Below, piece by piece: positions 1,374 to 61,542 of a DNA stretch of 64,000 bases (within the stretch, counting starts at the first letter, position 1; every line of letters starts with the position of its first letter). The notes beneath the pieces are model-generated. The model was not told the DNA's origin and did not search any database. It worked only from the letters and a program-made list of their open reading frames with translations. The translations under genes and the position numbers were made by a program. The DNA is from Dietzia sp. B32 (lineage in GTDB: Bacteria > Actinomycetota > Actinomycetes > Mycobacteriales > Mycobacteriaceae), in assembly GCF_024732245.1 (NCBI RefSeq), contig NZ_CP093845.1, positions 496,001-560,000 of the forward strand, given 5' to 3'.

Positions 1374-1379
1374 AGCCTA
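1374..1379 (-). promoter_or_regulatory. Candidate -10 element of the gamma-carbonic anhydrase gene, overlapping the thiL stop
   Basis: On the minus strand TAGGCT fits TANNNT and is followed by 6 nt and then the ATG. Its first three bases are the TAG stop codon of thiL. Transcription would begin at or next to the ATG. Confidence 0.5.
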
Positions 1380-2408
1380 GTTCGCGCCCCTTGCGGAGTC
1401 CCAGCCTCCCGGGGTGCGGGGCTCGCCGTCGAGGGTGACCCGGCCGGGATCACCGTGACGGATGGTCCCGATCACCGTGAACTCGGGGGGGACCGTCGCC
1501 CCGGGCGGGAAGGTGGCCAGCAGCCCGTGGTCCTCCCCGCCGTCGAGGATCCAGTCCAGGACCTGCCCCCGGGGGTCCGCTGCACCGAGCATGACGGCCG
1601 CCTCGACGAGGATCGGGTCGACGGGCAGATCGTCGGTGACGAGCTCGGCCTCGACCCCCGAGGCCCGGGCGAGCCCCGACAGGTCGCGGAGCAGGCCGTC
1701 ACTGACATCGGTGAGGGACCGCGCGCCGGCCAGCCGGGCGGCGGTGCCGGAGCCGATCGGCGTGACGGGCACCCGGTGAGACTGTTGGAGCGGGCCGTCG
1801 GGCTGGCCGGCGAGGAGGAGCGCGAGTCCGGCGGCGGAGCGCCCGGGCGCGCCGGTGAGGGCGACCGTGTCACCCGGCTGCGCGCCGTCGATCCGTAGGG
1901 GGCGGGCGCCGTCCGGCAGGGTGCCGATCGCCGTGACTCCGACGACGACGAGGTCCGCCCTGGTGAGATCCCCGCCCACCACGACGGCACCGGACCGCGC
2001 GGCTTCTCCGTGGACGCCGGCGGCGAGGTCCTCGATCTGCCCCATGGTCGTCCCGGCCGGCACGGCGAGGGCCACCAGGACACGTGAGCACTCGGCGCCC
2101 ATCGCCAGGACGTCGGAGACGTTCTGGGCCACCGCTCTCCTGCCCAGGTCGCCCCAGCCGGTGAGGTCGAGGCGGAAGTGGGTGCCCTCGACGAGCATGT
2201 CGGTGGTGACCACGGTGGCGGCGGCGGGCCCCAGGACCGCGGCGTCGTCGCCGTTGCCGACCGGGTCCTCCACCCCCGGCCGGTCCACCCCCGGCCGGTC
2301 CGTGCCCCGGTGGCTCACCGCGACCCCGCCCGCGTCGCTCAGGACGGCGAGGACCGCGGCCTCGCCCGCCTCGGCGACGGTCAGCGCACGGTCGATCACG
2401 GCGGCCAC
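1377..2408 (-). CDS. thiL: Thiamine-monophosphate kinase
   Basis: Phosphorylates thiamine monophosphate to thiamine diphosphate, the cofactor of acetolactate synthase (IlvB) encoded later in the window. The product has 343 residues. The substrate-binding signature GDDAAVL is at 53-59, and the ThiL/PurM-like motifs VGGDLTRADLVVVGVTAIG, SLTDVSDGLL and DGGEDHGLL follow. The GTG start at 2408 was chosen because GGGAGGA lies 4 nt upstream (2413-2419); a longer frame upstream is antisense to the DUF3515 gene. A 15-bp in-frame duplication gives RPGVD-RPGVE near residue 40. Confidence 0.95.
   Translation of the reverse strand: MAAVIDRALTVAEAGEAAVLAVLSDAGGVAVSHRGTDRPGVDRPGVEDPVGNGDDAAVLGPAAATVVTTDMLVEGTHFRLDLTGWGDLGRRAVAQNVSDVLAMGAECSRVLVALAVPAGTTMGQIEDLAAGVHGEAARSGAVVVGGDLTRADLVVVGVTAIGTLPDGARPLRIDGAQPGDTVALTGAPGRSAAGLALLLAGQPDGPLQQSHRVPVTPIGSGTAARLAGARSLTDVSDGLLRDLSGLARASGVEAELVTDDLPVDPILVEAAVMLGAADPRGQVLDWILDGGEDHGLLATFPPGATVPPEFTVIGTIRHGDPGRVTLDGEPRTPGGWDSARGAN
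2269..2298. repeat. 15-bp tandem duplication inside thiL
   Basis: Two perfect 15-bp copies (2269-2283 and 2284-2298) lie in frame in thiL and add one DRPGV unit. The unit sits in a variable loop before GDDAAVL, so it is probably neutral. Confidence 0.85.
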
Positions 2409-2523
2409 CTCGTCCTCCCGTGCTGTCTCGTCACCGGGGGTACCGGTGTGGGTCTGTAGCGTTGCCGTCAGGCTAGCGGCCGCCTCCGACGACGGCCGCC
2501 TGTGGGAGGAAGGACGACGCGAC

Positions 2524-3144
2524 GTGGCTTCGACGGATGCGGATCCCGGGAACCGGTACGACGCGGGCCCGCGGGAGACCGGGGATCCTGCTGCGCGGAC
2601 GGTTCCGGTCTCGAGGATCGTGGTGGTCCTGGCGGTCGTCATCCCGTTGATCATGCTGGCGGTGGTGTTGGTCATGGTCCGCTCGGTGGGCGACGAGGCC
2701 TCGGAGGCGGCGGCGAGCGAGCCGGTGGCCGCGGTACCCATCCCCTCCCCCGGCGCCGGGTCCGAGGAGTGCGCCGCCCTGGTCGAGGCACTCCCGGAGG
2801 CCCTCGGTGACGCCGGCCGGGTCGCACTCGTCGAACCCGCGCCGGAGGGCACCGCCGCGTACCGGATGCCCGACGCCGAACCGGTGATCGTCCGCTGCGG
2901 GTTGCCGGCTCCACCGACGTTCACGGTGGGCGTGGGTCTCCAGGAGGTCAACGGCGTCCAGTGGTTCAACGAGCCGGATCCGGACCCCGCGGTCACCGCG
3001 TCGACCTGGGTGGCCGTCGACCGCCCGCAGTTCGTCGCCGTCACGCTGCCGGAAGGCAGTGGCACCGGCCCGATCCAGGACCTGTCGGCCGCGTTGGTCG
3101 AGACGTTCGAGGCCGTGGAGCCGGACCCGGCACCGGTCGGCTGA
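2524..3144 (+). CDS. DUF3515 domain membrane-anchored protein
   Basis: A 206-residue protein with a short cytoplasmic N-terminus, one hydrophobic segment at about residues 31-52 and an extracytoplasmic domain with two cysteines (SEECAAL and VIVRCGLP) that could form a disulfide. This matches DUF3515, an actinobacterial family normally encoded between thiL and ddl (Rv2980 in M. tuberculosis). Its function is unknown; location suggests the cell envelope. The GTG start is preceded by AGGAAGGA at 10 nt. It is divergent from thiL and convergent with ddl. Confidence 0.85.
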   Translation: MASTDADPGNRYDAGPRETGDPAARTVPVSRIVVVLAVVIPLIMLAVVLVMVRSVGDEASEAAASEPVAAVPIPSPGAGSEECAALVEALPEALGDAGRVALVEPAPEGTAAYRMPDAEPVIVRCGLPAPPTFTVGVGLQEVNGVQWFNEPDPDPAVTASTWVAVDRPQFVAVTLPEGSGTGPIQDLSAALVETFEAVEPDPAPVG

Positions 3145-3190
3145 CCCGGTCGACGGGGGCCGACACCCGGCCGCATCGATCCCGGCCCGG

Positions 3191-4297
3191 TCAGCCCCGG
3201 CCGAGCGCGGTCCGCAGCAGGGTGTCGAGCAGACCCGGGTAGTCCACCCCCGTCGCCGCCCACATCTGGGGGTACATGGAGATCTGGGTGAACCCGGGCA
3301 TGGTGTTCACCTCGTTGATCACCGGCCCGTCGGCGGTGACGAAGAAGTCGACCCGGCTCAGCCCCCGGGCGTCCAGGGCGTGGAACGCCTCCACCGCCAT
3401 CGCGCGCAGTCGTCCGGTCTCCTCGTCCGACAGGTCGGCGGGCAGGTCGAAGGTGGTGACGTCGTCGAGGTACTTGGTGTCGAAGTCGTAGAAGGCGTCG
3501 CCGTCCGACTCCCCGGCGGCACCGGTCGGTTCGCCGGGGATGTGCAGTTCGGCGGGCAGACTCGCCTCGACCCGGCCGTCGGGGTACTCGAGGACCCCGC
3601 ACTCGACCTCACGGCCGACGATGGCGGCCTCGACGATCACCTTCGGGTCGAAGCGTCGCGCGGCCGCGATGGCCGCGTCGAGTTCCTCCGCACGGGAGAC
3701 CTTGGTGATGCCGATGGACGAGCCACCGCGGGCCGGCTTGACGAACAGCGGGAGACCGAGGTGGTCGCGGTCCGCGGCCGAGAGCGTCTCCGTGCCCGGC
3801 CGCAGGACGACCTGCCGGCCGATCGGCAGGCCCGCCGCGCCGAGTACGACCTTGGTGAACTCCTTGTCCATCCCGGCCGCGCTGGCGAACACGCCGGGAC
3901 CGACGTACGGGATCCCCGAGAGCTCGAGCAACCCCTGGATGGTCCCGTCCTCGGCGTGGGTGCCGTGCATGACGGGGAACACGACGTCCACCCGGGCGAT
4001 CTCCTCGCCGGCGCGGTCACCATCCACGAAGCGCAGTACGCCGCGGTCGTCGACCGACACCCCGAGGGCGACCTGCGGGCGGTGCGGGTCGACCTGCGGC
4101 ATTCTCCGGTCGACGATGCGCAGGTCGGACACGTCTTCCGGGCCGAGCGTCCACGCCCCGGTCTCGGTGATCCCGACGGGAATCACCTCGTAGGCGGAGC
4201 GGTCGAGGTGACTCATGACGGCGCCGGCGGAGACGCAGCTCACGGAGTGCTCGGAGCTACGACCGCCGTAGAGGACGGCAACGGTGATGCGGTTCAC
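3191..4297 (-). CDS. ddl: D-alanine--D-alanine ligase
   Basis: ATP-dependent ligase that makes the D-Ala-D-Ala dipeptide for peptidoglycan. The 368-residue product has the N-terminal GGRSSEHSVSC loop (11-21), the HGTHAEDGTIQGLLE segment, the ATP-grasp motif FVKPARGGSSIGI, and the metal-binding end INEVNTMPGFT. The GTG start lies 10 nt after the gpsA stop. A TAGCCT hexamer that begins with that stop codon ends 7 nt before the GTG, suggesting its own leaderless promoter. Confidence 0.97.
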   Translation of the reverse strand: MNRITVAVLYGGRSSEHSVSCVSAGAVMSHLDRSAYEVIPVGITETGAWTLGPEDVSDLRIVDRRMPQVDPHRPQVALGVSVDDRGVLRFVDGDRAGEEIARVDVVFPVMHGTHAEDGTIQGLLELSGIPYVGPGVFASAAGMDKEFTKVVLGAAGLPIGRQVVLRPGTETLSAADRDHLGLPLFVKPARGGSSIGITKVSRAEELDAAIAAARRFDPKVIVEAAIVGREVECGVLEYPDGRVEASLPAELHIPGEPTGAAGESDGDAFYDFDTKYLDDVTTFDLPADLSDEETGRLRAMAVEAFHALDARGLSRVDFFVTADGPVINEVNTMPGFTQISMYPQMWAATGVDYPGLLDTLLRTALGRG

Positions 4298-4304
4298 CGG
4301 GCCG

Positions 4305-4310
4305 AGGCTA
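4305..4310 (-). promoter_or_regulatory. Candidate -10 element of ddl, overlapping the gpsA stop
   Basis: TAGCCT on the minus strand fits TANNNT, ends 7 nt before the ddl GTG, and shares its TAG with the gpsA stop codon. Confidence 0.5.
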
Positions 4311-5306
4311 CTCGGGCTTCGTGCTCCGCCTCATGAGGCGCACCGCCACCTCGACGGCGTCGCCCCCTTCGTGACAGATCTCGTGGATCGCCTCGGTCAG
4401 CGGCATCTCCACCCCGACCCGCCGGGAGAGTTCGCGGATCGACGTGCAGGATTTGACCCCCTCCGCCACCTGGCCGTTGGTGGCCTCCTGGGCCTGCTCG
4501 AGGGTCTCTCCCCTCCCCAGACGCTCGCCGAAGGTCCGGTTACGCGACAGGGGGGAGGTGCAGGTGGCCACGAGGTCACCCAGTCCCGCGAGGCCGGCGA
4601 ACGTCATCTGGTTGGCGCCCAGGGCCACACCGAGCCGGGTGGTCTCGGCCAGTCCCCGGGTGACGAGGGTGGCCATGGTGTTGTCGCCCAGCCCCATCCC
4701 GGTGGCGATGCCGCAGACGAGGGCGATGACGTTCTTCGTGGCGCCGCCGATCTCGCAGCCCACGACGTCGGTGTTGGTGTACGGACGGAAGTAGGGGGTG
4801 GAGAAGGCGTCCTGGAGTCGGGCCGCGCGCTCGTCATCCGTGCAGGCGATCACGGTGGCCGCCGGCTGCCCCTCGGCGATCTCCCTCGCGAGGTTGGGAC
4901 CGGACAGGGCGGCGATCCTGCTCTCATCGATACCAGTGACCTCGGCGACGACCTCGCTGATACGCAGTAGCGTCCCGGTCTCGATCCCCTTGGCCAGCGA
5001 GATGACCCCGGCATCGGGCTCGAGCAGGTCGACCCAGTTCTCGAGGTTGCCACGCAGACTCTGTGACGGGACCGCCAGCACGACCTCCTCCGCACCCCTC
5101 AGGACGCGGGCCGGGTCGGTCGACGCGGTGACAGTCGCCGGGAGGACGATGTCGGGGAGGTACTTGGAGTTGCAGTGCTCCTCGTTGATCCCGGCCGCCA
5201 CCTCGTCGCGTCGGGCCCACATCACGACCTCGGATCCGGCGTCGGCGAGCACCTTGCCGACCGCGGTCCCCCAGGATCCCGCACCCATCACCGCGATCCG
5301 CGCCAT
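4308..5306 (-). CDS. gpsA: Glycerol-3-phosphate dehydrogenase [NAD(P)+]
   Basis: Reduces dihydroxyacetone phosphate to sn-glycerol-3-phosphate for phospholipid synthesis. The 332-residue product begins with the Rossmann motif GAGSWGTA (8-15), carries SLAKGIE and [10 protein letters not shown], and has the catalytic lysine K191 in GGATKNVIA. Two adjacent ATGs exist at 5309 and 5306; the second has GGGAGG at a better distance. The mirrored position beside fbiD is the same as in mycobacteria. Confidence 0.97.
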
Positions 5307-5415
5307 CATCGCCTCCCGACCGTCGTCATCCACCCGACCGCCCCAGAGGCGGATCGTGGTCAAACGCTACCCGGCGTCGGACGCGCGCGAGGCGCGGCTG
5401 GCAGGATGGCGGTCG

Positions 5416-6135
5416 ATGAGCACAGCACGGCGCGGCCCGATGACGGTTGACGGGTGGACGATCGTCGTCCCCGTCAAGTCGCTCGACCGCGCCAAGAGCC
5501 GACTGGTCCCCGCCCTGAGCGCCGACGGCAGGCGGTCACTCGTCGTGGCGATGGCCGACGACGTGCTGAGGGCGTGTCGGGACACCCCCGGTGTCGCACG
5601 GGTCCGGGTCGTCTCGGCCGACCCCCGCGTGGAGGATCTCGCCGTGCGGTCGGGGGCGGAGTTCGTCCGGGAGCCCGCCGACACGCGCCGCCCGCACGTC
5701 GACCCCCTCAACCTCGCCCTGGACCTCGCACTCGCCGACGTCCCCGGTCCGGTCGGGGTGGTCGCCGCGGATCTCCCGGAACTGCGCCCGGACCACCTCG
5801 CGCGGATCCTGGACGTGGCCGGCAGACACCCGCACTCGACGGTGGCGGACCACCGCGGGGCCGGGACCACGATGGCCTTCTGGACCACCGCCCCCGGCAC
5901 GCGCGTGTGCCGGTTCGGCATCGACTCCGCGGCTCGGTTCCGCGTCGGGGGCGGGGCGGTTCCGATCCCGGTGGAGGGTGATCTCGGCGCCGCCGCGCGG
6001 GATGTCGACCTCCCCGGCGACCTCGCGGCGTTGCCGGGGAGAACGGTCGGGACCGCCACCGCCGGGATGCTACGGGACCCCGCCGTCCGTCTCCTCGCCC
6101 ACGCGACCGGGGTATCGGACACAATGGTCCCGTGA
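5416..6135 (+). CDS. fbiD: Phosphoenolpyruvate/2-phospho-L-lactate guanylyltransferase (F420 synthesis)
   Basis: CofC/FbiD family nucleotidyltransferase that activates phosphoenolpyruvate or 2-phospholactate with GTP at the start of coenzyme F420 side-chain assembly. The 239-residue product has the nucleotide-binding [13 protein letters not shown] segment and [11 protein letters not shown], typical of the fold. ATG 5416 was chosen because AGGA precedes it by 9 nt; a later ATG at 5440 lacks a ribosome-binding site. The stop overlaps the ppk start by 4 nt (GTGA), as expected for translational coupling. The fbiD-ppk-mutT1 order matches Rv2983-Rv2985. Confidence 0.93.
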
Positions 6136-8228
6136 CCGCCGAACCCAGCGCCCTCCAGGGATTGCCCCGACCCCGCGACCGTTACCTGAACCGTGAACTG
6201 AGCTGGCTCGACTTCAACGCCCGGGTCCTCGCACTCGCCGGGGAGAAGGACCTCCCACTGCTGGAGAGGGCGAAGTTCCTGGCGATCTTCGCGTCGAACC
6301 TCGACGAGTTCTACATGGTCCGCGTGGCCGGCCTCCAGCGCCGCGACAAGACGGGATTGTCGGTACGGTCCGCGGACGGCCAGACCCCCGCCGAGCAACT
6401 CGGCCGTATCAGCCGACGGACCCGGGAACTGTGCGACGAACAGACCCGGTTGTTCGAGGACGAGATCCGGCCGGCGTTGGAGGAGCGCGGGATCCGGATC
6501 CTGCCGTGGAGCGAGCTCACCGCGGACGAACGCTTCTCATTGGCGGAATTGTTCCGCAACTCGATCTTCCCCGTCCTCACCCCGCTGGCGGTCGACCCGG
6601 CGCACCCGTTCCCGTACATCTCCGGCCTGAGCCTGAACCTCGCGGTCATCATTCGCGATCTCGACTCGGGTCAGGAACACTTCGCCCGGGTGAAGATCCC
6701 CCACAACGTCCCGCGGTTCGTCCGGGTCGACCGGGGCGGACAGGACGACTACGTGTTCGTCGCGGCCGAGGACATCATCGCCGCGCACCTGCAGGATCTG
6801 TTCCAGGGCATGGAGGTCGTCGAGCACCACGTCTTCCGGGTGACCCGCAACGCGGACATGGAGGTCGAGGAGGACCGCGACGAGGACCTGCTGCAGGCTC
6901 TCGAGCGTGAACTCGCCCGCCGCCGCTTCGGATCGGCGGTGCGTCTGGAGATCGCGGAGGACACCACCCCGCGGATGCTCCGAATCCTGCAGCGTGAGCT
7001 CGACGTCGATTCGGCCGATGTCATCCGGTTCTCGGGCCTGCTGGACCTCACCGGGTTGTGGCAGATCCACGGTCTCGACCTGCCCGACCTCAAGGACACG
7101 CCGATGGTGCCGGCCACTCCCCCGGCGTTCGGTGAGCGGGAGACGGCCCGCAACATCTTCGCCTCCCTCCAGGAGGCCGACGTGCTCGTCGAGCACCCCT
7201 ACGAGTCGTTCGCCACCACCGTCCAGCGGTTCATCGAGCAGGCCGCCGCCGACGACGACGTCCTGGCGATCAAGCAGACGCTCTACCGCACCTCCGGTGA
7301 CTCCCCCATCGTCAACGCGCTCGTGGACGCAGCCGCGGCCGGCAAGCAGGTCGTCGCGTTGGTGGAGATCAAGGCCCGGTTCGACGAACAGAACAACATC
7401 CGGTGGGCCCGCGAGCTCGAGCAGGCCGGAGTCCATGTCGTGTACGGCCTGCTGGGTCTGAAGACGCACTGCAAGACCTGCCTCGTGGTGCGCAAGGAAG
7501 GCGACCGACTCCAGCGCTACGCCCACATCGGCACCGGCAACTACAACCCCAAGACGGCCCGGTTGTACGAGGACGTGGGTCTGTTCACCGCCGACGAGGA
7601 CGTCGTGTCCGACCTGACGGACCTGTTCAACCACCTCACCGGGTTCTCCAACGTGAGCAAGTACCGGCGGCTGCTCGTGGCGCCGGAGGGCATCCGCTCG
7701 GGGATCATCGAGCGGATCGACCGCGAGATCGAGTTGGCCGCCGAGGGCCGACAGGCCGGTATCCGGCTCAAGGCGAACGCATTGGTCGACGAGCAGGTCA
7801 TCGACGCCCTGTACCGCGCCTCCCAGGCCGGGGTGCCGGTCGACATCGTGGTCCGGGGTATCTGTTCCCTGCGGGCGGGTGTTCCCGGACTGAGCGAGAA
7901 CATCCACGTGCGCTCCATCCTCGGTCGGTTCCTCGAGCACTCCCGGATCCTCCACTTCCGGGGCGCGGACGAGGCCCTGATCGGCAGCGCGGACATGATG
8001 CACCGCAACCTGGACCGCCGCGTCGAGGTGATGGTCACGGTCACCGATCCCCGGCTCAAGGCGCAGATCCACCGCATCTTCGACTCGGCCCTCGATCCGA
8101 CGACCCGAAGCTTCCACCTCCGACCCGACGCGACGTGGACCCGCATGCCCGCGACGGAGGACTGGGCGGAGTCGGTGGACCACCAGGAACGGACGGCGGC
8201 CTTGCACGCGGGGTTCCGGGACCGATGA
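6132..8228 (+). CDS. ppk: Polyphosphate kinase 1
   Basis: Makes inorganic polyphosphate reversibly from ATP. The 698-residue product covers the full family: N-terminal helical domain ([17 protein letters not shown]), head domain, and two phospholipase D-like C-terminal domains. The autophosphorylated histidine corresponds to H465 in [10 protein letters not shown], and the second conserved histidine to H603 in LEHSRILHF. It overlaps fbiD by 4 nt (GTGA) and mutT1 by 4 nt (ATGA), so the three genes form one operon. Confidence 0.98.
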
Positions 8229-9130: not shown

Positions 9131-9152
9131 TCAGAGGTAGCGGGCCGGGCGG

Positions 9153-9533: not shown

Positions 9534-9629
9534 GTGGGGATCCCCCTTCGGGTGAGTGATGCAGGCGCGGTACCGGTCCGCGCCGGACTAAACATAAGCA
9601 TACTCACACGCTACTGCCAGCCGGGGGTA

Positions 9630-9649
9630 TTTCGGACGTTAGTCCGAAA
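9630..9649. terminator. Perfect 8-bp hairpin between leuD and hupB
   Basis: TTTCGGAC and GTCCGAAA flank a 4-nt GTTA loop. It sits 18 nt beyond the leuD stop, where a leuCD terminator would be expected, but no T-run follows. It could instead be an operator upstream of the hupB promoter; likely minus-strand -10 sequences (TATGCT, TATGTT) lie near 9588-9603. Confidence 0.4.
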
Positions 9650-9667
9650 CGACTTCTTACTTGCCGA

Positions 9668-10264: not shown

Positions 10265-10270
10265 GAGATG

Positions 10271-11737: not shown

Positions 11738-11793
11738 CACGCCTCCACTCCACGTCCTGATCAGATCCGATGGATTCTCACCATGTAGGACGA

Positions 11794-20278: not shown

Positions 20279-21073
20279 CTACCTGTCGACGACGGGGTTC
20301 GTCAGGGAGCCGATGCCCTCGATCTCGACCTTCACGCGGTCTCCGGGCAGCATGGGGCCCACCCCGGCCGGGGTGCCCGTGAGGATCACGTCGCCGGGCA
20401 GGAGCGTCATGACCCGGCTCACGTACTCGACGATCTCGCCGACGGTGTGCATGAACTGGGACGTGTTGCCGTCCTGGCGCACCTCGGACGTGCCGTCGGA
20501 GTGGGTGAGAGTGACCCGGACGTCCAGTCCGTTGGGGTCCAGGTCGGTGACGATCCACGGCCCGAGTGGGCAGAACGTGTCGTAGCCCTTCCCACGCGTC
20601 CACTGTCCGTCCGATAGTTGCTGGTCCCTGGCGGTGACGTCGTTGGCGCAGGTGTATCCGAGGATGACCTCATGGGCGCGGGCGGCGGCGACATCCCGAC
20701 ACGGCTGCCCGATCACCACGGCCAGCTCGCCCTCGTGGTCGACACGCTCGGAGCTCGGCGGGTACGCGATGGCCGCCTCCGGGCCGATCACCGAGGTGTT
20801 GGGCTTGAGGAAGATCAGCGGCTCCGCCGGGGCCGCCGACCCCATCTCCTCGGCGTGGTCGGCATAGTTCTTGCCCACGCACACGACCTTCGACGCCAGG
20901 ATCGGGGCGAGCAGACGCACGTCGGCCAGCGGCCAGTCCCGTCCGGTGAACTCGGGGGTACCGAAGGGGTGCTCGGAGATCTCGGCGCAGATCAGTGAGG
21001 ACGGGTCGGAGATGTCTCCGCGGACCTCGACGAAGGCGAAACCCTGCGGGTGGGCGATACGGGCGAGACGCAT
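20279..21073 (-). CDS. Fumarylacetoacetate hydrolase (FAH) family protein
   Basis: The 264-residue protein carries the FAH metal-binding pattern: VDHEGELAVVIG (acidic ligands), GYTCANDVTARDQQ, and KGYDTFCPLGPWIV, ending in ILTGTPAGVGPMLPGD. Members hydrolyse or decarboxylate beta-diketo or 2-oxo acids. The substrate cannot be told from sequence. A homolog beside gltX is conserved (Rv2993c). ATG 21073 lies 10 nt after the exonuclease stop. TAGGAT, beginning with that stop codon, ends 7 nt before the ATG. Confidence 0.93.
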   Translation of the reverse strand: MRLARIAHPQGFAFVEVRGDISDPSSLICAEISEHPFGTPEFTGRDWPLADVRLLAPILASKVVCVGKNYADHAEEMGSAAPAEPLIFLKPNTSVIGPEAAIAYPPSSERVDHEGELAVVIGQPCRDVAAARAHEVILGYTCANDVTARDQQLSDGQWTRGKGYDTFCPLGPWIVTDLDPNGLDVRVTLTHSDGTSEVRQDGNTSQFMHTVGEIVEYVSRVMTLLPGDVILTGTPAGVGPMLPGDRVKVEIEGIGSLTNPVVDR

Positions 21074-21080
21074 ACCCGCG

Positions 21081-21086
21081 ATCCTA
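21081..21086 (-). promoter_or_regulatory. Candidate -10 element of the FAH-family gene, overlapping the exonuclease stop
   Basis: Minus-strand TAGGAT ends 7 nt before the ATG. Its TAG is the stop codon of the upstream exonuclease gene. Confidence 0.5.
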
Positions 21087-30336: not shown

Positions 30337-31404
<1,068 letters not shown>

Positions 31405-31407
<3 letters not shown>

Positions 31408-41892: not shown

Positions 41893-43374
41893 TCAGTTGC
41901 ACGCCGCGATGACCAGCTCTTTCACGCGCGCCGGGTCTGCCTGACCGCGGGTCGCCTTCATGACGGCACCGACGATCGCGCCGGCAGCCTGCACCTTGCC
42001 GGAGCGGATCTTGTCGGCGATGTCGGGCTGGGCTGCCAGGGCGTCGTCGACGGCCTTCTGCAGGGCCGAGTCGTCCCGCACCACCTCGAGGCCCTTGTCC
42101 GCGACGATCTGGTCGGGCTCGCCCTCGCCGTCGAGGATCGCGTCGACTACCTGGCGGCCGAGCTTGTTCGTGAGCTTGCCCTCGGCGACCAGTTCGATGA
42201 CCCGCGCCAGCTGTGCTGGGTCGATGGCGAGTTCGGTGAGGGCGACACCGCGCTTGTTGGACTGCTGGGTCATGTACGACACCCACCACGACCGGGCCTC
42301 GGCGGCCGGGGCGCCCGCGTCGACCGTGGCGAGGATGAGATCGAGGGCTCCGGCGTTGACGAGGTCCCGCATCTCCTCGTCCGAGACGCCCCAGTCCGCC
42401 TGGACTCGTGCGCGGCGGACCCACGGCAGCTCCGGTAGCGTCGCGCGGATCTCCTCGATGAGTTCTTCGGTGGGCTCCACGGGCGCGAGATCCGGCTCGG
42501 GGAAGTAGCGGTAGTCCTCCGCAGACTCCTTTGGCCGCCCGGACGTCGTGGTGCCGTCCGACTCGTGGAAGTGGCGGGTCTCGAGCACGACCTCGTCGCC
42601 TGCGGTGAGGACGTCGGCCTGGCGGCACATCTCGTGCCGAACCGCGATCTCGACGCTGCGCAGGGAGTTGACGTTCTTGGTCTCCGTGCGGGTGCCGAAC
42701 TCGGTGGCGCCCTTCGGCATCAGCGACACGTTCGCGTCACACCGCATCGAACCCTGGTCCATCCGGACGTCCGACACGTCGAGACTGGAGAGCAGATCTC
42801 GCAGCGTGGTGACGTAGGCGCGGGCGATCTCCGGCGCCCTCTCCCCCGCCCCGACGATCGGCTTGGAGACGATCTCGATGAGAGGGACGCCGGCGCGGTT
42901 GAAGTCGAGCAGCGAGTGGGTCGCACCGTGGATGCGGCCGCTGGCGGAGCCGACGTGGGTGGACTTGCCGGTGTCCTCCTCCATGTGCGCGCGCTCGATC
43001 TCGACCCGCCACGTCTCGCCGTCCTCGAGCTGTACGTCGAGGTAGCCGTCGTGGGCGATCGGCTCGTCGTACTGCGAGATCTGATAGTTCTTCGGCTGGT
43101 CCGGGTAGAAGTAGTTCTTGCGCGCGAAACGGCTGTGCGGCGCGATCGAGCAGTTGAGCGCCAGACCGATCTTGATGGCCCACTCCACGGCCTGACGGTT
43201 GGCCACGGGCAACGCGCCCGGCAGACCGATACACACCGGACACACCTGGGTGTTGGGATCCGCCCCGAACGCGGTGGGACATCCGCAAAACATCTTGGTG
43301 GCGGTGTGCAGCTCTACGTGCACCTCCATGCCCATGACGGGATCGAAACGTGACACGACCTCGGTGAACTCCAT
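41893..43374 (-). CDS. gatB: Asp-tRNA(Asn)/Glu-tRNA(Gln) amidotransferase subunit B
   Basis: tRNA-binding and glutamyl-phosphate-forming subunit of the GatCAB amidotransferase. The 493-residue product starts [23 protein letters not shown] with the zinc-binding [12 protein letters not shown], and ends with the GatB/YqeY helical domain. ATG 43374 lies 10 nt after the pfkA stop. TAGATT, beginning with that stop, ends 7 nt before the ATG. Confidence 0.98.
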
Positions 43375-43381: not shown

Positions 43382-43387
43382 AATCTA
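43382..43387 (-). promoter_or_regulatory. Candidate -10 element of gatB, overlapping the pfkA stop
   Basis: Minus-strand TAGATT ends 7 nt before the gatB ATG and shares its TAG with the pfkA stop codon. Confidence 0.5.
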
Positions 43388-51634: not shown

Positions 51635-51662
51635 ACGCGTCGCGCGGCGCCGTCACCGTCGG

Positions 51663-53872: not shown

Positions 53873-55065
53873 GACGCGGCCACTCCGGCGCGGGCGAGCC
53901 CGAGGCCGGCGACGCGGGCTCGTTCGGCTGCGGGTCCGAGAGCGGCGATCGCGGCGTCGACGTCGGCCTCGGTGGTGGTGTGCCCCAGACTCAGACGCAG
54001 ACTGCTGCGGGCCGCGGCGTCGTCGGCCCCGAGGGCCAGGAGAACGTGGCTCGGCTCGGCCACGCCGGCGGTGCAGGCCGACCCGGTGGAGCATTCGATC
54101 CCGGCGGCGTCGAGCAGCAGGATGAGCGACTCGCCGGAGCAACCCGGGAACGTGAGGTTGGCGATCCCGGGCAGGCGCTGGCCTCCGCCGTTGGCGATCG
54201 CGCCGGGAACCTCGGCGAGCACACCGGCGACCAGTCGATCGCGGAGCCGGCTGAGGCGCAGGGCCTCGGAATCCATCTCCCTTACCGCCTCCTCGAGCGC
54301 GGCGGCCATCGCGACGGCCCCGGGGACGTCCACGGACCCGGACCGCAGGTCCCGCTCCTGGCCGCCCCCGTACCCGATCGGCAGGCAGTCGGCACTTCGG
54401 TCGAGGAGCAGTGCGCCGACACCGAGCGGGCCACCGAACTTGTGCGCGGAGAGGCTGAGGGAGGTCACGCCGAGGGCGGAGAAGTCGACCGGGACGTGCC
54501 CGACGGCCTGGACCGCGTCGGTGTGGACGGCCGCACCCACCGCGCGGGCCGGGCCGGCCGTCGCCGCGACGTCGGTGAGGGTGCCTATCTCGTTGTTGCC
54601 GAGCATCGTCGCGACGAGGGCGAGCCGGGACCCGACCTCGTCGGCGAGGTCGCGGACCGTGCCCGGGGTGACGGCACCTCGGGAATCCACGGGCAGCACG
54701 CGGACGTCTTTCCGCCCGCCGCGGTCGGTGGCCAGGTGCGCGGCGGCGTCGAGGACGGAGTGGTGTTCCGTCGCCCCGACGGCCACCACGTCGCCGGCCG
54801 CGGCGCCGGCCTGACCCAGGACGGCGAGATTGTCGGACTCGGTCCCCCCGGAGGTGAACACGACCTCGGACGGTCGGCAGCCGAGATGGTGCGCGAGCGA
54901 CTCGCGGGCTTCCTCGACACGGCGGCGGGCACGGCGTCCGGAGCCGTGGAGCGAGGACGCGTTACCGACCGCGGAGGCCGCCTCGGCGTAGGCGGCGACG
55001 GCGGCCTCACGCATCGGGGTGGTCGCGGCGTGGTCCAGATAGTGCACGGAGCGGGTGGTGGGCAT
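53869..55065 (-). CDS. Cysteine desulfurase (IscS/NifS family)
   Basis: PLP enzyme that takes sulfur from cysteine and passes persulfide to MnmA. The 398-residue product has the PLP-lysine K209 in [12 protein letters not shown] and the sulfur-accepting Cys331 in [12 protein letters not shown] 55065 was chosen ([17 protein letters not shown], the family start); TATCCT ends 10 nt upstream, so the 5' leader would be only a few nt. It corresponds to the gene next to mnmA in mycobacteria (Rv3025c). Confidence 0.95.
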
Positions 55066-55093
55066 ATCGCTGGCAAGGATACGCCCGAACGCG

Positions 55094-55128
55094 CCGGACC
55101 CCGGCACCGCAGGGGTGCCGGGGTCCGG
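55094..55128 (-). terminator. 15-bp perfect hairpin after etfA
   Basis: Arms 55094-55108 and 55114-55128 pair perfectly around a 5-nt loop, 31 nt beyond the etfA stop and before the cysteine desulfurase promoter. No T-run follows. Confidence 0.75.
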
Positions 55129-55159
55129 GGACGCTGGTGGACGCGGTGTGCGTCCCGAC

Positions 55160-56110
55160 TCACTTACGGGCGTTGATGGCCTCGGTGAGCTGCGGTGCGA
55201 CGTTGAACAGGTCGCCGACGATGCCGTAGTCCGCGATCTCGAAGATCGGGGCCTCCTCGTCCTTGTTCACGGCGACGATGGTCTTCGACGTCTGCATACC
55301 GGCGCGGTGCTGGATCGCGCCCGAGATACCCAGGGCGATGTACAGCTGCGGCGAGACGGTCTTGCCGGTCTGGCCGACCTGGAACTGGCCCGGGTAGTAA
55401 CCCGAGTCGACGGCCGCACGCGACGCGCCGACCGCACCCTTGAGGGAGTCGGCGAGGGGCTCGACGACCTTCTCGAAGTTCTCCGCGGAGCCGACGCCAC
55501 GACCACCCGAGACGACGACGGTCGCCTCGGTGAGCTCGGGACGGTCGCCACCGACGATCGGGTTGCGCGAGATGACCTTGGCGGCGTTCTCGGGCTCGGG
55601 AACCTGCACCTCTACGACCTCTCCGGCGCCGGCGGCCGGGGCCGCCTCGACGGAGCCCGGACGCAGCGTGTAGATCGGGGTCTCGCCGGAGACGGTCGCC
55701 TCGACGGTGAATGCGCCACCGAAGATCGAGTGGACGGCCGAGCCGTCGGACTTGATCTCGACGACGTCGCAGAGGGTGCCGGACCCGGTGCGGGCCGCGA
55801 GACGACCCGCGACCTCCTTGCCCTCGAACGTGGCGGCCAGGACGATCGCGGCGGCGCCCTGCTCGGCGAGGCCAGCCAGGACGTCGACCTTGGGTGTGAC
55901 GAGGTAGTTCTGGACCGCGTCGCCCTCGGCGACGTAGATCTTCTCCGCGCCGGCCTCCTTGAGGGCCTCGGTGAGCGCGGCGGCGGTGCCGGTCTCACCG
56001 AAGACGACCGCGGAGGGCTCTCCGAGTGCACGAGCGGCGGTCAGCAGCTCGAGGGACACCTTCTTGAGTTCGCCGTCGACGTGCTCGACCGCGACGAGGA
56101 CTTCAGCCAT
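55160..56110 (-). CDS. etfA: Electron transfer flavoprotein alpha subunit
   Basis: FAD-binding subunit that takes electrons from acyl-CoA dehydrogenases. The 316-residue product carries the C-terminal FAD region [38 protein letters not shown] and [16 protein letters not shown]. The ATG has AAGGAG 9 nt upstream. It follows etfB by 52 nt. Confidence 0.97.
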
Positions 56111-56162
56111 GGTGGATTCTCCTTGAAAAAGACTGGGATGAGTCGGTCGGGGTGAGTTCGCG

Positions 56163-56948
56163 TCAGATGAGCTTCTGCGACACGAGGTACTTGGCGACGT
56201 CGTTGCCGCCCTCGCCCTCGTCCGTGACCTTCTCACCGGCGGCGCGCGGCGGCTTGGGGCTCGCGGAGGTCACACTCGACGCCGCGTTGTCCTTGCCCAC
56301 CTGTCCGGCCTCGACGTTCGCGTCGGCCAGGGTCAGGTTCTCGACCGGCTTCTTCTTGGCGGCCATGATGCCCTTGAAGGACGGGAACCGCGGCTCGTTG
56401 ATCTTCTCTCCGACGGAGACGACGCACGGCAGGGGCGCCTCGACCTCGAAGATGCCCTCGTCGGTCTCGCGCTCGCCCTTGGCGACGCCGTCGGCGATCT
56501 CCAGGGTGCGCATGTGCGTCAGCTGGGGAAGGCCGAGGTACTCGGCGAGGATGGCCGGGACGGCACCCATGCGCCCGTCGGTGGCCTCGTTACCGGCGAT
56601 GACCAGCTCGGTGCCCTCGATGGTGCCCAGGACGTTGGCCAGGGCCCACGAGGTCTGGACGACGTCGGAGCCGTGGAGCGCCTCGTCGTTGAGGTGCACG
56701 GCCTTGTCGGCGCCCATCGACAGGGCCTTCCGGATGGCCTCGGTGGCGCGGTCCGGGCCGGCGCACAGGACGGTGACCTCGCCGCCGTGGGCCTCCTTGA
56801 TCTGGAGAGCCTGCTCGACGGCCTTCTCGTTGATCTCGTCCAGGACCGCGTCCGCGGCCTCGCGGTCCAGGGTGTAGTCCCCGTCCGAGAGCTTGCGCTC
56901 CGAATAGGTGTCGGGAACCTGCTTGATCAGTACGACGATGTTCGTCAT
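56163..56948 (-). CDS. etfB: Electron transfer flavoprotein beta subunit
   Basis: The 261-residue partner of EtfA. Key segments are IVVLIKQVPDTYSERKL, CAGPDRATEAIRKALSMGAD and VIAGNEATDGRMGAVPAILAEYLGLP. An AGGAGG lies 14 nt before the ATG. It is first in etfBA; an inverted repeat overlaps the predicted promoter. Confidence 0.97.
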   Translation of the reverse strand: MTNIVVLIKQVPDTYSERKLSDGDYTLDREAADAVLDEINEKAVEQALQIKEAHGGEVTVLCAGPDRATEAIRKALSMGADKAVHLNDEALHGSDVVQTSWALANVLGTIEGTELVIAGNEATDGRMGAVPAILAEYLGLPQLTHMRTLEIADGVAKGERETDEGIFEVEAPLPCVVSVGEKINEPRFPSFKGIMAAKKKPVENLTLADANVEAGQVGKDNAASSVTSASPKPPRAAGEKVTDEGEGGNDVAKYLVSQKLI

Positions 56949-57012
56949 GGGCCTGCGTCGACCTCCTGCGAGTCGGGGCGGGGTGCGCCCCCGTCATGAC
57001 CGGGCGCACCGG

Positions 57013-57036
57013 ATTGTGGTCCTGCCACACACAATA
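57013..57036 (-). promoter_or_regulatory. etfBA promoter with overlapping inverted repeat
   Basis: Minus-strand TATTGT (57036-57031) is a plausible -10. ATTGTG and CACAAT (57013-57018, 57030-57035) form a 6-bp inverted repeat with an 11-nt centre overlapping it, a possible repressor site. Confidence 0.4.
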
Positions 57037-57070
57037 ACGCGGCCACGCCCGCGGTGACGGGGCCGGGGCC

Positions 57071-57100
57071 GGTCGGTGGCCGCCGGCGGTCGGTGGCCGC
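57071..57100. repeat. 13-bp direct repeat between etfB and the acyl-CoA synthetase gene
   Basis: GGTCGGTGGCCGC occurs at 57071-57083 and 57088-57100, just past the acyl-CoA synthetase stop. No function is evident. Confidence 0.7.
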
Positions 57101-57110
57101 GGTCGGCGGC

Positions 57111-58742
57111 TCAGTTGATGCGCTTCTCCCAGCCGGACCACGCGGCGTCGCGCAGTTCGTTCTTGCGCACCTTGCCCGTGGACGTCCGCGGCAGCGCCTC
57201 GGTCAGCTCCACGGCGCCCGGTACCTTGTAGCGCGCGATCCGGGTCCGGCAGTGTTCGACCACGCCGTCGGCGTCGAGGGCCGAGCCCGGCCTGACCACG
57301 ACGTAGGCCTTGGGGCGCTCGCCCCATTTCTCGTCGGGCATGGAGACCACGGCGCAGTCCACGACGTCGGGGTGCGAGACGATCGCCTGCTCGACCTCGA
57401 TCGTGGAGATGTTCTCGCCGCCCGACACCACCACGTCCTTGGCCCGGTCGAGGAGCTGCACGTAGCCGTCCGGATGCATGACGCCCAGGTCACCCGAGTG
57501 GAACCAGCCGCCCGCGAACGCGGTGGCCGTGGCCTCGGGGTCGCCGAAATACCCCTTCATGACCCCGTTGCCGGTCATGACGACCTCGCCCATGGTCACT
57601 CCGTCGGCGGGCACGTCGACCAGATGGCTCTCCCCCGGCGAGGTGCGTTCGACGACGCGCACGGTGTCGGCGTGGATCATCGCCACCCCCTGCCGCGACT
57701 TCAGCCCTGCGCGCTCGTCGGGATCCAACCCGGACCACCCCGGCTGCGGCGTGCAGACCGTGAACGGGCCGTAGGTCTCCGTCAACCCGTACACCTGGGT
57801 GACGTCGATTCCGAGGTCCTCGAAGCGCCGCAGGATGGTCGGCGAGGGCGGGGCCCCGGCGGTGACCATGCGGATCCCCTCGATCGGCCGGGCTGCCGGG
57901 TCGTCGGCGATGGTGGACAACACGGCTGGTGCACCGGCCAGGCGGTTGACCCCCTCGTCGTCGAACAGTCGCCAGATCTCGTCCCCGCGGACGGCGCGCA
58001 GACACACATGGGTCCCCCTCGCACCGGTCAGGGCCCAGGTGGTGCACCACCCGTTGCAGTGGAACATCGGCAGCGTCCACAGGTACTTCGAGTCGGCGTC
58101 GAGGCCCTGGGTGATGATCTCGCCGAGGGAGTTGAGGTAGGCGCCCCGATGCGTGTACATGACGCCCTTGGGTCGGCCGGTCGTACCGGAGGTGTAGTTG
58201 ACCGCGATGACGGAGTCCTCGTCGGCGACAGTCCACGACACGGGCTGCGGCGAGGCGGACGCGAGGGCGTCCTCCAGGGACTCGGCGCGCGGGCCGAACC
58301 GGGCCGGGTCGGGTTGCGAGCCGTCCGCGTCCGGGGCGACCAGGACGAGGCGCAGCGCATCCGGGACATCGTCGCCCAGCCCCGCGAGGAGGTCGGCGTC
58401 CGCGATGAGGACGGCGATCCCGGCGTGCTCGACGATGTAGGCGATCTCCGCAGGGGCGAGGCGGGTGTTGAGGGCGACCACGGCGCCGCCCGCGAGCGGA
58501 ACGCCGAACTGCGCGAGCAGTGCCTCGGCCGAGTTCGGCGCCAGGACGCCCACCCGGTCACCGCGCGCGACGCCACGCATCTTCAACACGGAGGCCAGCC
58601 GGGTGGCCCGGTCGGCGAACTCGGCGTAGGTCTGACGGCGCGGGCCGTCGACGACCGCGGTGGCGTCGGGTGAGACGCGCGCGGCCTTCTCGAGGAAGCT
58701 CAGCGGGGTGAGCGCGGTGTCGAGTCCGGAGTTCGCTGTCAT
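57111..58742 (-). CDS. Fatty-acyl-CoA synthetase (FadD-like, AMP-binding)
   Basis: Activates a carboxylic acid to its CoA thioester through an acyl-AMP. The 543-residue product has the P-loop-like YTSGTTGRPKG (183-193), YGLTETYGP and the catalytic Lys524 in STGKVRKNEL. Chain length is not predictable. It lies upstream of etfBA on the same strand, a sensible neighbour for beta-oxidation. ATG 58742 was preferred to the GTG at 58769; neither has a strong ribosome-binding site. Confidence 0.93.
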   Translation of the reverse strand: MTANSGLDTALTPLSFLEKAARVSPDATAVVDGPRRQTYAEFADRATRLASVLKMRGVARGDRVGVLAPNSAEALLAQFGVPLAGGAVVALNTRLAPAEIAYIVEHAGIAVLIADADLLAGLGDDVPDALRLVLVAPDADGSQPDPARFGPRAESLEDALASASPQPVSWTVADEDSVIAVNYTSGTTGRPKGVMYTHRGAYLNSLGEIITQGLDADSKYLWTLPMFHCNGWCTTWALTGARGTHVCLRAVRGDEIWRLFDDEGVNRLAGAPAVLSTIADDPAARPIEGIRMVTAGAPPSPTILRRFEDLGIDVTQVYGLTETYGPFTVCTPQPGWSGLDPDERAGLKSRQGVAMIHADTVRVVERTSPGESHLVDVPADGVTMGEVVMTGNGVMKGYFGDPEATATAFAGGWFHSGDLGVMHPDGYVQLLDRAKDVVVSGGENISTIEVEQAIVSHPDVVDCAVVSMPDEKWGERPKAYVVVRPGSALDADGVVEHCRTRIARYKVPGAVELTEALPRTSTGKVRKNELRDAAWSGWEKRIN

Positions 58743-58927
58743 CGGGGTGTAGCCGCCTCTCGTGGGCACGGGTGATGCCCGTCACGGTAGCGGCGGAGTG
58801 CACTCCGCGATCCGCGATTCCCCCTCCCGCACCCCTGCCCCGGGCGGCTTCGGGGAGCGCCGGTCAGGTGAGGGGCGGGCGGCGGACTACTCTCTCGTGT
58901 GACTGTCTCGACTCGACGGGGGGACCT

Positions 58928-60298
58928 GTGGCACCGGCATCGACACCGGCACTGACACCGCGCACCGCGCGGTCCCTGGTCGCCGTCGCGCTCGCGGCGG
59001 GAGTGCTCGCCGGGTGCGCCTCGGACACCGAGAGCGGCGGTGCCCGCCTGGGCCAGGCCGCGAGCTGGTCCTCGGTCGCCGGCGGGCCGCCCAACTCCGG
59101 TCGTGCCCACTCCGCGGTCACGGACGCCCCCGAACTGCTGTGGTCCCGTGCGTTGGGGGCGCCCGCGATCGGCGTGGCCTCCTCGGACGGCATCGGCACG
59201 TCATTCCAGGCCACGGTCTCCGAGCGCGGGTGCAACCTCTTCGCACTGACCGCCGAGGACGGCCGCAAGCGCTGGTGTCTACGACTGCCGACGGACGGCC
59301 CGCGCATCACCGCGACGGTCGACGCACGCGGGTCGTTGTTCGTCCCGATGTACGGCGGGGTGGGCGCGCTGGCGGCCGAAGGCGAGAACCGCTGGTTCGC
59401 CGCGACGAAGGGCGTGCCCACCACCGTGACGTTGCTGGACGGCCGTCACCTGCTGCTCGTGTCGCATCTCGGGGTGGCGCGGGTGGTCAACGCCCACACC
59501 GGTCTGGACGCCACTCCCGAACTGCGGCTCACCGGGAACATCGCGACCGACGACCGGGCCTACGGCCTCCCGTGGTGCGCCACCGGTGAGCGCGGCTGCC
59601 CGGCGCCCTCCCCCGCCGCCGTGGACACCGACACGGCGACGGCCTACCTCACCGCATGGACGCCGGGCGCCGACGACCCGGAACTGGTCGCGGTCCGGCT
59701 GGTCCCCGGCGAGTTCACGGCCCTCGAAGAAGTGTGGCGCGTGCCCCTGCCCGACGGTCGCCTGGGCACGCCGGTGGTGTTGTCGAACGACCGCGACGAG
59801 GTCTACGTCCACGCCGCCGACGGCACCCTGGGCGCGTACTCGACGTCGGACGGCGCGGTTCGGTGGTCCGCCCCGGTCGGCTACCGGCCGGACACGCCCC
59901 CCGCCCTGCTGCCCGACGGGACGCTGGTCAGCGGCGGTCGCACGACCACCGTGTGGAGGGGACCCGACGACGACCACGACGACGACGCGGGCCCGGCGCC
60001 CGTGGTGGCCGTCCGCGGGGAGGACGGAACCGGCCGGGAGGTCTGGCGCCGGGACGACCTGCGTCAGCTCACCAACCCCGCCGCGACGGCCGACGGGCGG
60101 GTGCTCGTGGCCGTGCGCTCGGGAGGTACCGACGACGAGCCCGGGATCGCGGTCCACCTGCTCGACGGCGACGACGGGGCCACCCTCCACCGGATCGAGG
60201 TACCCGCGGCGACGGGCCCGGTCTCGGGGCTCAGCGTGGACTCGGACGGCCGGATCGCGCTGACGACCGCGGTGGGCGCGGTGTACGTGTTCGAGTGA
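58928..60298 (+). CDS. PQQ-repeat beta-propeller lipoprotein (Rv3035-like)
   Basis: The 456-residue protein has a signal peptide and lipobox LAGC (Cys30), followed by repeated WD/PQQ-type blades (TAEDGRKRWCLRLPTDG, VVNAHTGLDATPELRL, YSTSDGAVRWSAPVGY, VHLLDGDDGATLHRIEV). It is envelope-bound; enzymatic activity is unlikely without further motifs. The GTG follows a run of G (GGGGGGA), and TACTCT about 37 nt upstream is a likely -10. Confidence 0.85.
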   Translation: MAPASTPALTPRTARSLVAVALAAGVLAGCASDTESGGARLGQAASWSSVAGGPPNSGRAHSAVTDAPELLWSRALGAPAIGVASSDGIGTSFQATVSERGCNLFALTAEDGRKRWCLRLPTDGPRITATVDARGSLFVPMYGGVGALAAEGENRWFAATKGVPTTVTLLDGRHLLLVSHLGVARVVNAHTGLDATPELRLTGNIATDDRAYGLPWCATGERGCPAPSPAAVDTDTATAYLTAWTPGADDPELVAVRLVPGEFTALEEVWRVPLPDGRLGTPVVLSNDRDEVYVHAADGTLGAYSTSDGAVRWSAPVGYRPDTPPALLPDGTLVSGGRTTTVWRGPDDDHDDDAGPAPVVAVRGEDGTGREVWRRDDLRQLTNPAATADGRVLVAVRSGGTDDEPGIAVHLLDGDDGATLHRIEVPAATGPVSGLSVDSDGRIALTTAVGAVYVFE

Positions 60299-60314
60299 CC
60301 GGGTGGTCGGGCGG

Positions 60315-61529
60315 TCAGTCCCGTCGGGCGGAGCGCGGCCCGCACACGAACACCACCGCGGAGCTGCCGATCCGGGTCACGACGAGGGCCAGCGGCCGTG
60401 ACCCGCTGAGGGCGAGCGATCGCCGCAGCACGTCGGGATCCGTGTCGACACCGCGCACGAGGATCTCCAACGACCCGCAGTCGCGCTGCCGCAGCACGCG
60501 GCGCAGCTGCTTGCGGTCCAGCCTGCACTTCTCGAGGACCTCGAACCCGGTGTAGCCGTCCGGGACCCGTGGGCCGGTCAGGTGGGCGATCCTCGGGTCG
60601 AGCTGACGGAGCCCGTGACGGCGGGCCCAGTGACGTACGAGACCAGCGCGGACGACCGCCCCGTCGGGATCCACGATGAACCGCTCGGCCTCCTCGTGGG
60701 CGTCGACCTCGTCGTCGTCGCGGTCGGTCACCTCCTCCACGTGGACCGCGACACCGTCCGCGACGAGGCGCGGTGGCCCCCACGGCCCCGGCGCGTGGGC
60801 GGCGGTCGTGCGGAGCACCGTGGCCCGACGGCGCACGCCGGCCGACAGGCCCGGCGACCACAGGCACGCCTCCCGCACCGAGCCGTCGAGGGACACCAGT
60901 TCGACCTCCCCGGAATGGTCGAGCTGCGAGGTGTCCAGGCCCGGGGCGCACTTGATGACGTGATCGCGGTCGGCGGCGACGGTGAGCAGGTCCGGCAGCG
61001 GCGGGCTGAGCCGGGCCGGGTCGTGGACGCGCCGGCCGGCGGAGCGGCGCGCGGGGTCCGCCACCAGGACGGCGTCGCGGCTGGGCGGGGCGAGCGCGTC
61101 GGCCACACACACGAGCGCGTCCGGGACGTTGTGGGCGGCCATCCGGGCGCGGACCGGGTCCAGGTCGGAGCCGATAACCCGGTCGGCGGTGCGCACCAGC
61201 TCGTTCAGTTCGGCGCCGACGGAGCAGGTGACGTCGTGGACGTCCCGGCCGGCCAGACGGCCCGCCCGCAGCGCCGCGACCGGCCACGCCGTGGCCTGCT
61301 GGACCGCCTCGTCGGTGAGGAGCATCGCCCCGGAGCCCCGGATCCGACCGTGAGCACGGGCCCGCGCGGTGACGACGTCGATAGCCGCCGCCGCATGCAC
61401 GGGATCGGCGCGGCGGACGGCCGCGGTCGAGGCCACGAGGCCGGCGCGGGACCACTCCAGGCCCGCCGCGAGGTCGAGCAGGTCGCGTCCGGCGGGAGTG
61501 CGCAGGAACTCCAGGTCCTCGGGGGTCAC
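60315..61529 (-). CDS. SAM-dependent methyltransferase with THUMP-like domain (Rv3037c-like)
   Basis: The 404-residue protein has a central Rossmann-like region (VHDVTCSVGAELNELVRTADRVIGSDLDPVRARMAAHNV) and NPPY-like VLVADPARRSAGRR, then a C-terminal THUMP-like domain (GFEVLEKCRLDRKQLRRVLRQRDCG). It probably methylates RNA. The GTG at 61529 was chosen: TAACGT, which begins with the NUDIX stop codon, ends 7 nt before it. Confidence 0.85.
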   Translation of the reverse strand: MTPEDLEFLRTPAGRDLLDLAAGLEWSRAGLVASTAAVRRADPVHAAAAIDVVTARARAHGRIRGSGAMLLTDEAVQQATAWPVAALRAGRLAGRDVHDVTCSVGAELNELVRTADRVIGSDLDPVRARMAAHNVPDALVCVADALAPPSRDAVLVADPARRSAGRRVHDPARLSPPLPDLLTVAADRDHVIKCAPGLDTSQLDHSGEVELVSLDGSVREACLWSPGLSAGVRRRATVLRTTAAHAPGPWGPPRLVADGVAVHVEEVTDRDDDEVDAHEEAERFIVDPDGAVVRAGLVRHWARRHGLRQLDPRIAHLTGPRVPDGYTGFEVLEKCRLDRKQLRRVLRQRDCGSLEILVRGVDTDPDVLRRSLALSGSRPLALVVTRIGSSAVVFVCGPRSARRD

Positions 61530-61536
61530 CGCCGCA

Positions 61537-61542
61537 ACGTTA
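61537..61542 (-). promoter_or_regulatory. Candidate -10 element of the methyltransferase gene, overlapping the NUDIX stop
   Basis: Minus-strand TAACGT fits TANNNT, ends 7 nt before the GTG and shares TAA with the NUDIX stop codon. Confidence 0.5.

Follow-up and report, generated by a model that had tools for sequence, protein, structure and literature searches.

In the 64,000-nucleotide stretch of the Dietzia sp. B32 chromosome analyzed here (hereafter, the window), five pairs of tandem genes are arranged so that the TAG or TAA stop codon of the upstream gene forms the first three bases of a TANNNT hexamer, a sequence resembling the -10 element of actinobacterial leaderless promoters, located just before the start codon of the downstream gene. 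These junctions had been reported in a first-pass annotation of the same DNA; all five are exact at the reported positions, and all lie on the minus strand. The gaps between stop and start, described there as 9 to 10 nt, measure 9, 10, 10, 10, and 10 nt. Throughout the text, TAR stands for TAG or TAA, T6 for a T at position 6 counted from the first base of the stop codon, and box for any TANNNT hexamer; a junction whose stop codon begins the box is called a stop-box junction.

At the first junction (CA), the thiL stop codon (1377-1379) opens the hexamer TAGGCT (1374..1379), which is followed after 6 nt by the ATG at 1367 of a gene for a hexapeptide/gamma-carbonic-anhydrase-like protein (846-1367). 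The spacing from hexamer to start codon is 7 nt at the other four. The gpsA stop (4308-4310) begins TAGCCT (4305..4310) ahead of the GTG of ddl at 4297, and the stop of an exonuclease gene (21084-21086) begins TAGGAT (21081..21086) ahead of the ATG of an FAA-hydrolase family gene at 21073 (the FAH junction). The pfkA stop (43385-43387) begins TAGATT (43382..43387) ahead of the ATG of gatB at 43374 (gene 41893-43374). Finally, the stop (61540-61542) of a gene labeled NUDIX (61540-62322) begins TAACGT (61537..61542) ahead of the GTG at 61529 of a gene labeled methyltransferase (60315-61529; the MT junction).

Most of the gene names given in the first-pass annotation hold, with thiL, ddl, gpsA, FAH, exonuclease, gatB, pfkA, ilvN, and ilvC all backed by Pfam or NCBIfam matches, but the names at the two outermost junctions fared less well. 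The carbonic anhydrase label has only a sub-threshold gamma-carbonic anhydrase match plus hexapeptide repeats behind it, the sole match of the methyltransferase is a THUMP-like domain, and the NUDIX gene, here unassigned, gave no match in Pfam (threshold of 1e-5) or NCBIfam (threshold of 1e-3). As a side observation, thiL was called as 1377-2741 on the minus strand, over-extended across a probable plus-strand gene at 2502-3144, with ThiL family matches not beginning until about residue 160 of that frame; the thiL stop codon is unaffected.

A leaderless-promoter signature before start codons

The same genome was sampled by taking the window together with 60 stretches of 20 kb spread over the chromosome, a total of 1.264 of 3.73 Mb. 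Genes were called with a custom caller that was trained on codon usage and is blind to motifs. Its penalty for TTG starts was raised after gatB had been placed at TTG 43383, a case seen in the window; therefore, results from the sequence beyond the window (1.2 Mb in 60 stretches, with 1065 scored starts) are quoted separately. Starts running off a stretch or lying <60 bases from its upstream end were left out, as were tandem neighbors without a closed stop.

Before the 1065 outside-window starts, a TANNNT hexamer occurs 49 times at a spacer of 6 nt, 56 times at 7 nt, and 11 times at 8 nt, and before only 0 to 10 starts at each other spacer from 0 to 25. The peak does not depend on a neighboring stop codon, as the hexamer also occurs among divergent genes, whose starts follow no upstream stop: 55 of 360 have it 6 to 7 nt ahead of the start. 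Boxed starts also differ from the remainder in their ribosome-binding sequences: core tetramers of the Shine-Dalgarno (SD) sequence were found in the region -18..-4 of 398 of the 993 unboxed starts, but of only 3 of 104 other boxed starts and 1 of 11 stop-box starts. Taken together with the retention of the box where it no longer serves as a stop (see below), the spacer peak and the rarity of SD sequences back the first-pass reading of these hexamers as putative -10 boxes of leaderless genes. A literature search on Dietzia and leaderless transcription, covering titles and the beginnings of abstracts, found no transcript work on Dietzia.

The spacing appears to differ somewhat among genera. In the sample of other genera described below, spacers of 6, 7, and 8 nt account for 100, 89, and 51 of 1297 starts, compared with the 49, 56, and 11 of 1065 given above, and the distance from the -10 box to the start thus seems tighter in Dietzia.

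Stop codons and boxes in the same genome

The comparison of gaps proposed in the first-pass annotation, made here on the sampled stretches, bore out the association outside the window. TARNNT is present in 6 of 14 same-strand pairs with gaps of 9 to 10 nt and in 12 of 502 pairs with other gaps of at least 0 (p=1.9e-6), and about 0.23 such cases at 9 to 10 nt would be expected from base rates. Among TAR stops alone, T6 follows in 6 of 7 at gaps of 9 to 10 nt and in 12 of 108 at other gaps (p=4.2e-5). Two probable stop-box junctions (L303 and L011), called with a GTG at gap 4, were kept in the control group, and the test is therefore conservative. The preference for TAG or TAA over TGA, for which the first-pass annotation suggested possible selection, is visible as well, if more weakly (7 of 14 against 108 of 502; p=0.019), but these data do not distinguish selection on the overlap as such from neutral capture of the stop codon by the box (see below).

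A test independent of the gene caller gave a similar picture. With the window included, 60 TAR and 367 TGA stops were scored; an in-frame ATG or GTG lies 9 to 10 nt after 16 of the former, 13 of these with T6, and after 10 of the latter, 2 of these with T6. Without the window, 11 TAR cases remain, 8 of them with T6. Exact coincidence is one arrangement among several. Of the 55 boxed tandem starts (window included), 11 have an upstream stop that coincides with the first bases of the box, 12 have it 1 to 30 nt further upstream, and 30 have it >30 nt upstream; in the last 2, it falls beyond the box, which places the box inside the upstream gene.

Conservation across Dietzia

Orthologues of the five downstream genes were taken from a set of 22 Dietzia relatives, and the upstream stop codon was located in each, giving 102 loci with our own genome included. 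This count leaves out L097 and L098 (FAH of G014, matched in two pieces) and L145 and L148 (partial MT matches), and the ddl figure was obtained after re-anchoring L056 by one codon. The stop codon begins the box in 84 of the 102 loci, namely, in 15 of 19 at CA, 21 of 22 at ddl, 18 of 21 at FAH, 20 of 22 at gatB, and 10 of 18 at MT.

In nine loci, the stop lies elsewhere. Here (L153, L154, L160, and L165 at CA; L067 at ddl; L094 and L095 at FAH; L126 and L127 at gatB), the stop is found 32 to 67 nt before the aligned start and is TGA in eight and TAG in one, and a boxed start persists in all nine. In L126 and L127, the boxed start is an in-frame ATG 21 or 36 nt further upstream. The upstream proteins of these nine loci align to within 0 to 6 residues of the last query residue. 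Conservation of the box is thus observed independently of its role as a stop. At CA, the pattern TA....T is kept in 19 of 19 loci, with T1, A2, and T6 invariant, while positions 3, 4, and 5 vary, and in L165, the hexamer reads TATGCT, so that the stop function is gone and the box is retained. The box is likewise present in 22 of 22 loci at ddl, including the one in G022, where a TGA lies 63 nt upstream, and in 21 of 21 at FAH, including L094 and L095, with a TGA 33 and 37 nt upstream. Three of the 102 loci fall outside these classes and the MT loci discussed below: L096, in which the upstream gene was not found, and L144 and L146 (MT).

When five relatives were compared with the tandem junctions of the window, the stop-box junctions kept TAR in G009, G013, G016, and G017, two of which (G013 and G016) had lost T6 at MT; TGA predominated at ordinary junctions. 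TGA is also the stop of gpsA and pfkA in G022, where the gaps measure 63 and 67 nt, respectively. The overlap at CA is missing in G001, G007, and G014/G015, where the box is kept. These absences look like losses because G022 has the overlap, on a quick tree in which several forks are open and G014/G015 and G018/L199 are at zero distance. In L160 (CA), GGCGCGAAC is present twice, one copy preceding the TGA stop and the other the TAG box, which suggests that the spacer was regained or grew by a short duplication.

A sixth case in the first-pass annotation, ilvN-ilvC with its longer leader, is also present. The ilvN stop (31405-31407, minus strand) begins TAGTCT (31402..31407), and the ATG of ilvC follows at 31350 after a gap of 54 nt. 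TAGTCT is kept in four of the five compared relatives at gaps of 54 to 55 nt, and G022 has TGATTC and a gap of 67 nt. This hexamer is a candidate -10 element for a leadered ilvC transcript.

Direction of change at pfkA-gatB

At gatB, the order of events can be read from other genera. PfkA could be listed with gatB in 28 of 84 loci; the other 56 had no PfkA match whose stop lies <=400 nt before the aligned gatB start. All 28 listed loci have an in-frame gatB start with TANNNT at 6 to 7 nt (spacers of 6 to 8 nt were searched), and such boxed starts occur in Rhodococcus, Gordonia, Williamsia, mycobacteria, Corynebacterium, and Dietzia. The pfkA stop of the 21 non-Dietzia loci is found 37 to 392 nt before the aligned start, and 17 of these loci use TGA. 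Coincidence of the pfkA stop with the box is restricted to the main Dietzia clade, and the basal G018 and G022 are without the overlap. Judging from this distribution, with the boxed start spanning genera and the overlap only in the main clade, the boxed gatB start predates its fusion with the pfkA stop, a derived state that arose within Dietzia. The end of PfkA (LFG or equivalent, then the stop) is the same in Dietzia genomes of both states, and the sequences indicate that the fusion removed some 50 nt, made up of spacer and gatB N-terminal codons, and changed TGA to TAG.

The gatB start codon itself shifts by up to 12 codons among lineages (window 41893-43374, L126, L127, and L199-L272); the unit of promoter and start moves, and the protein body is conserved.

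Occurrence in other genera

A scan of a genome collection by GatB alignment gave 593 loci, of which the best 80 were used; the gatB of the window matches Dietzia records there at 92%, and 77 of the loci were not Dietzia-like (1.49 Mb, 761 tandem pairs). Within these 77, TAR stops make up 15 of 18 at gaps of 9 to 10 nt and 214 of 561 at other gaps of at least 0, and T6 follows 12 of 15 TAR stops at gaps of 9 to 10 nt and 38 of 214 elsewhere (p=1e-6), figures that come from partly orthologous, non-independent loci because all of them surround gatB.

Proposed mechanism

Very probably, the hexamers are SigA-type -10 elements of leaderless promoters for the downstream genes, with their first three bases also ending the upstream frame. 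RNA polymerase would recognize TANNNT and initiate at the first base of the ATG or GTG, 6 to 7 nt further on, and the resulting mRNA would have no leader and no SD site. Both the point of initiation and the identity of the sigma factor are inferred. Because the -10 element fixes T1, A2, and T6 and termination limits the third base to A or G, TGA would be excluded at such a stop, and the two genes could not be packed more closely without the -10 box running into the sense codons of the upstream gene. As to origin, a spacer would at first have separated an older leaderless box from an ordinary upstream stop, in most cases TGA; with the loss of that spacer, presumably by deletion, the TAG or TAA of the box would have become the stop.

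The first-pass annotation had further proposed that such pairs are separate transcription units. As stated, this is not supported, while the sequence strongly supports a promoter of its own for the downstream gene. Since an intrinsic terminator would not fit into 9 to 10 nt, transcription from upstream should continue into the downstream gene, and read-through combined with an internal leaderless promoter, such that the downstream gene is also transcribed from upstream, appears likelier than separate units.

We lean slightly toward regarding these junctions as a recurrent, conserved actinobacterial class in which one gene takes its stop from the sigma-factor -10 element of the gene that follows and the promoter dictates TAG or TAA, never TGA, combining operon-like spacing with an independent promoter, gained by spacer loss, and lost without loss of the promoter.

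Several observations weigh against the leaderless-promoter mechanism or limit the evidence for it. (i) The effect in our own genome rests on 6 outside-window cases (8 with the two probable start miscalls), and the window, with 5 stop-box junctions in its 64 kb compared with 6 in the 1.2 Mb sampled beyond it, an approximately 16-fold excess noticed post hoc, is unusually rich in such cases and therefore overstates their frequency. (ii) Boxes also lie in coding sequence: in 2 of 177 overlapping pairs outside the window and in 9 of 181 among the non-Dietzia loci, the box is inside the upstream gene, so the coincidence of stop and box is not the sole arrangement in those genera. (iii) Three further genomes, in samples too small to reveal the effect, show no enrichment of their own: the G022 sample (400 kb) contains one pair at gaps of 9 to 10 nt, which is a stop-box junction; 200 kb of Nocardia flavorosea contains two such pairs and no stop-box junction; and 200 kb of Haloechinothrix halophila contains no pair at these gaps. 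(iv) Among close relatives, the ddl and gatB hexamers do not vary, but neither do large parts of the adjoining sequence, and the FAH hexamer is nearly invariant; such constancy therefore says little about which bases matter. (v) Six of 18 MT loci (L134-L138 and L142) keep TAG and a gap of 9 to 11 nt and lose T6, so that the MT promoter would be dispensable or replaced, with the gene expressed otherwise.

Alternative explanations

The strongest alternative is neutral capture, in which the box is kept solely for the promoter and an upstream frame that runs into it in phase must stop there, with no selection on the overlap or on the choice of stop codon. It shares the mechanism proposed above and differs on selection only, and we give it slightly less than an even chance. 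As 52 of the 104 boxes that are not stops begin with TAG or TAA, a frame in phase with a box has a fair chance of stopping. The turnover of the overlap is also in keeping with neutrality: it was gained at gatB, and G022 suggests that it was ancestral at CA, in which case G001, G007, and G014/G015 lost it there and kept the box. The upstream proteins of the nine decoupled loci, however, end at nearly the same residue as their counterparts, which argues that the upstream frame was not simply extended until it was caught; spacer loss or gain accompanied by a change of stop codon fits better than frame extension.

Translational signals provide a second alternative, with the stop overlapping an SD sequence or another re-initiation signal. 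There is precedent, as TAG can belong to an SD sequence (TAGGAGG in Bacillus subtilis, at 10-bp spacers), and spacers of 9 to 15 bp had the highest SD presence in the portions of that study available to us (PMC2784483). Here, bases complementary to the anti-SD sequence are nearly lacking, the SD core being present in 1 of 11 stop-box starts against 398 of 993 unboxed ones, and the variable inner bases with a fixed T6 at CA do not fit an SD sequence either. We therefore rejected this explanation, which is very improbable.

Improved termination would be a third possibility, with T6 enhancing termination at TAG or TAA and transcription playing no part. T6 does lie within the extended stop context at each junction. 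The dependence of T6 on gap length among TAR stops (6 of 7 against 12 of 108) nevertheless contradicts this explanation, and 55 of 360 divergent genes carry an identically spaced hexamer where there is no upstream stop. This explanation was also rejected and is highly improbable. Chance, that is, pattern seeking in a GC-rich genome, gains something from the favorable window (5 cases against 6 in the 1.2 Mb elsewhere) but is contradicted by the same enrichment outside the window and in other genera and by genus-wide conservation, and we rejected it as having a negligible probability.

Comparison with known systems

In the sections of the literature accessible to us, many actinobacterial transcripts are leaderless and begin at the start codon, with TANNNT about 12 bp before the start codon or 7 to 12 bp before the transcription start (PMC3160421, PMC3898074, PMC3890552, and PMC6448022); a stop codon within the box, and an effect on stop choice, are not described in those sections. 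TANNNT is reported to be depleted from Mycobacterium tuberculosis coding sequence in all frames, according to the consulted part of that work (PMC10653884). In Deinococcus-Thermus, a -10 element adjoining the start codon drives leaderless mRNA; the accessible part of the report describes an examination of RpoD binding and changes to positions 1, 2, and 6, and the term "stop codon" is absent from its main text (PMC12340547). A search for descriptions of an overlap between stop codon and -10 element found none among the listings and passages it covered, most subscription journals and bioRxiv being outside its scope.

The recA-recX pair of M. tuberculosis, as described in the available portions of the report, provides an experimental precedent for co-transcription combined with an internal leaderless promoter, with a promoter in the 3' end of recA, a transcription start at the A of the ATG, and co-transcription of both genes (PMC3062782). 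Unlike the junctions here, the recA and recX coding regions overlap, and the stop is not described there as a -10 element.

If the proposed mechanism holds, these junctions would be a concrete case of transcription initiation appearing to constrain a stop codon, and they would account for a small share of the non-TGA stops in a TGA-rich genome. They also suggest a rule for predicting operons and start sites in Actinobacteria, by which a same-strand gap of 9 to 10 nt with TARNNT points to a leaderless promoter at the second gene.

The closest parallels are translational, again on the basis of the accessible parts of one study (PMC2784483). In the stop/SD overlaps of short spacers, as here, the upstream stop doubles as part of a downstream initiation signal, and that signal shifts both stop usage and spacer length; there, however, the signal is ribosomal, and TGA and TAG fit better than TAA, whereas the signal here is promoter-like, a -10 element that excludes TGA. 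The 4-nt ATGA and GTGA overlaps, represented by 143 tandem pairs at gap -4 outside the window, are similar in that the stop shares bases with the next start signal, which dictates the stop (TGA). Those overlaps are translational, whereas the junctions described here would be transcriptional.

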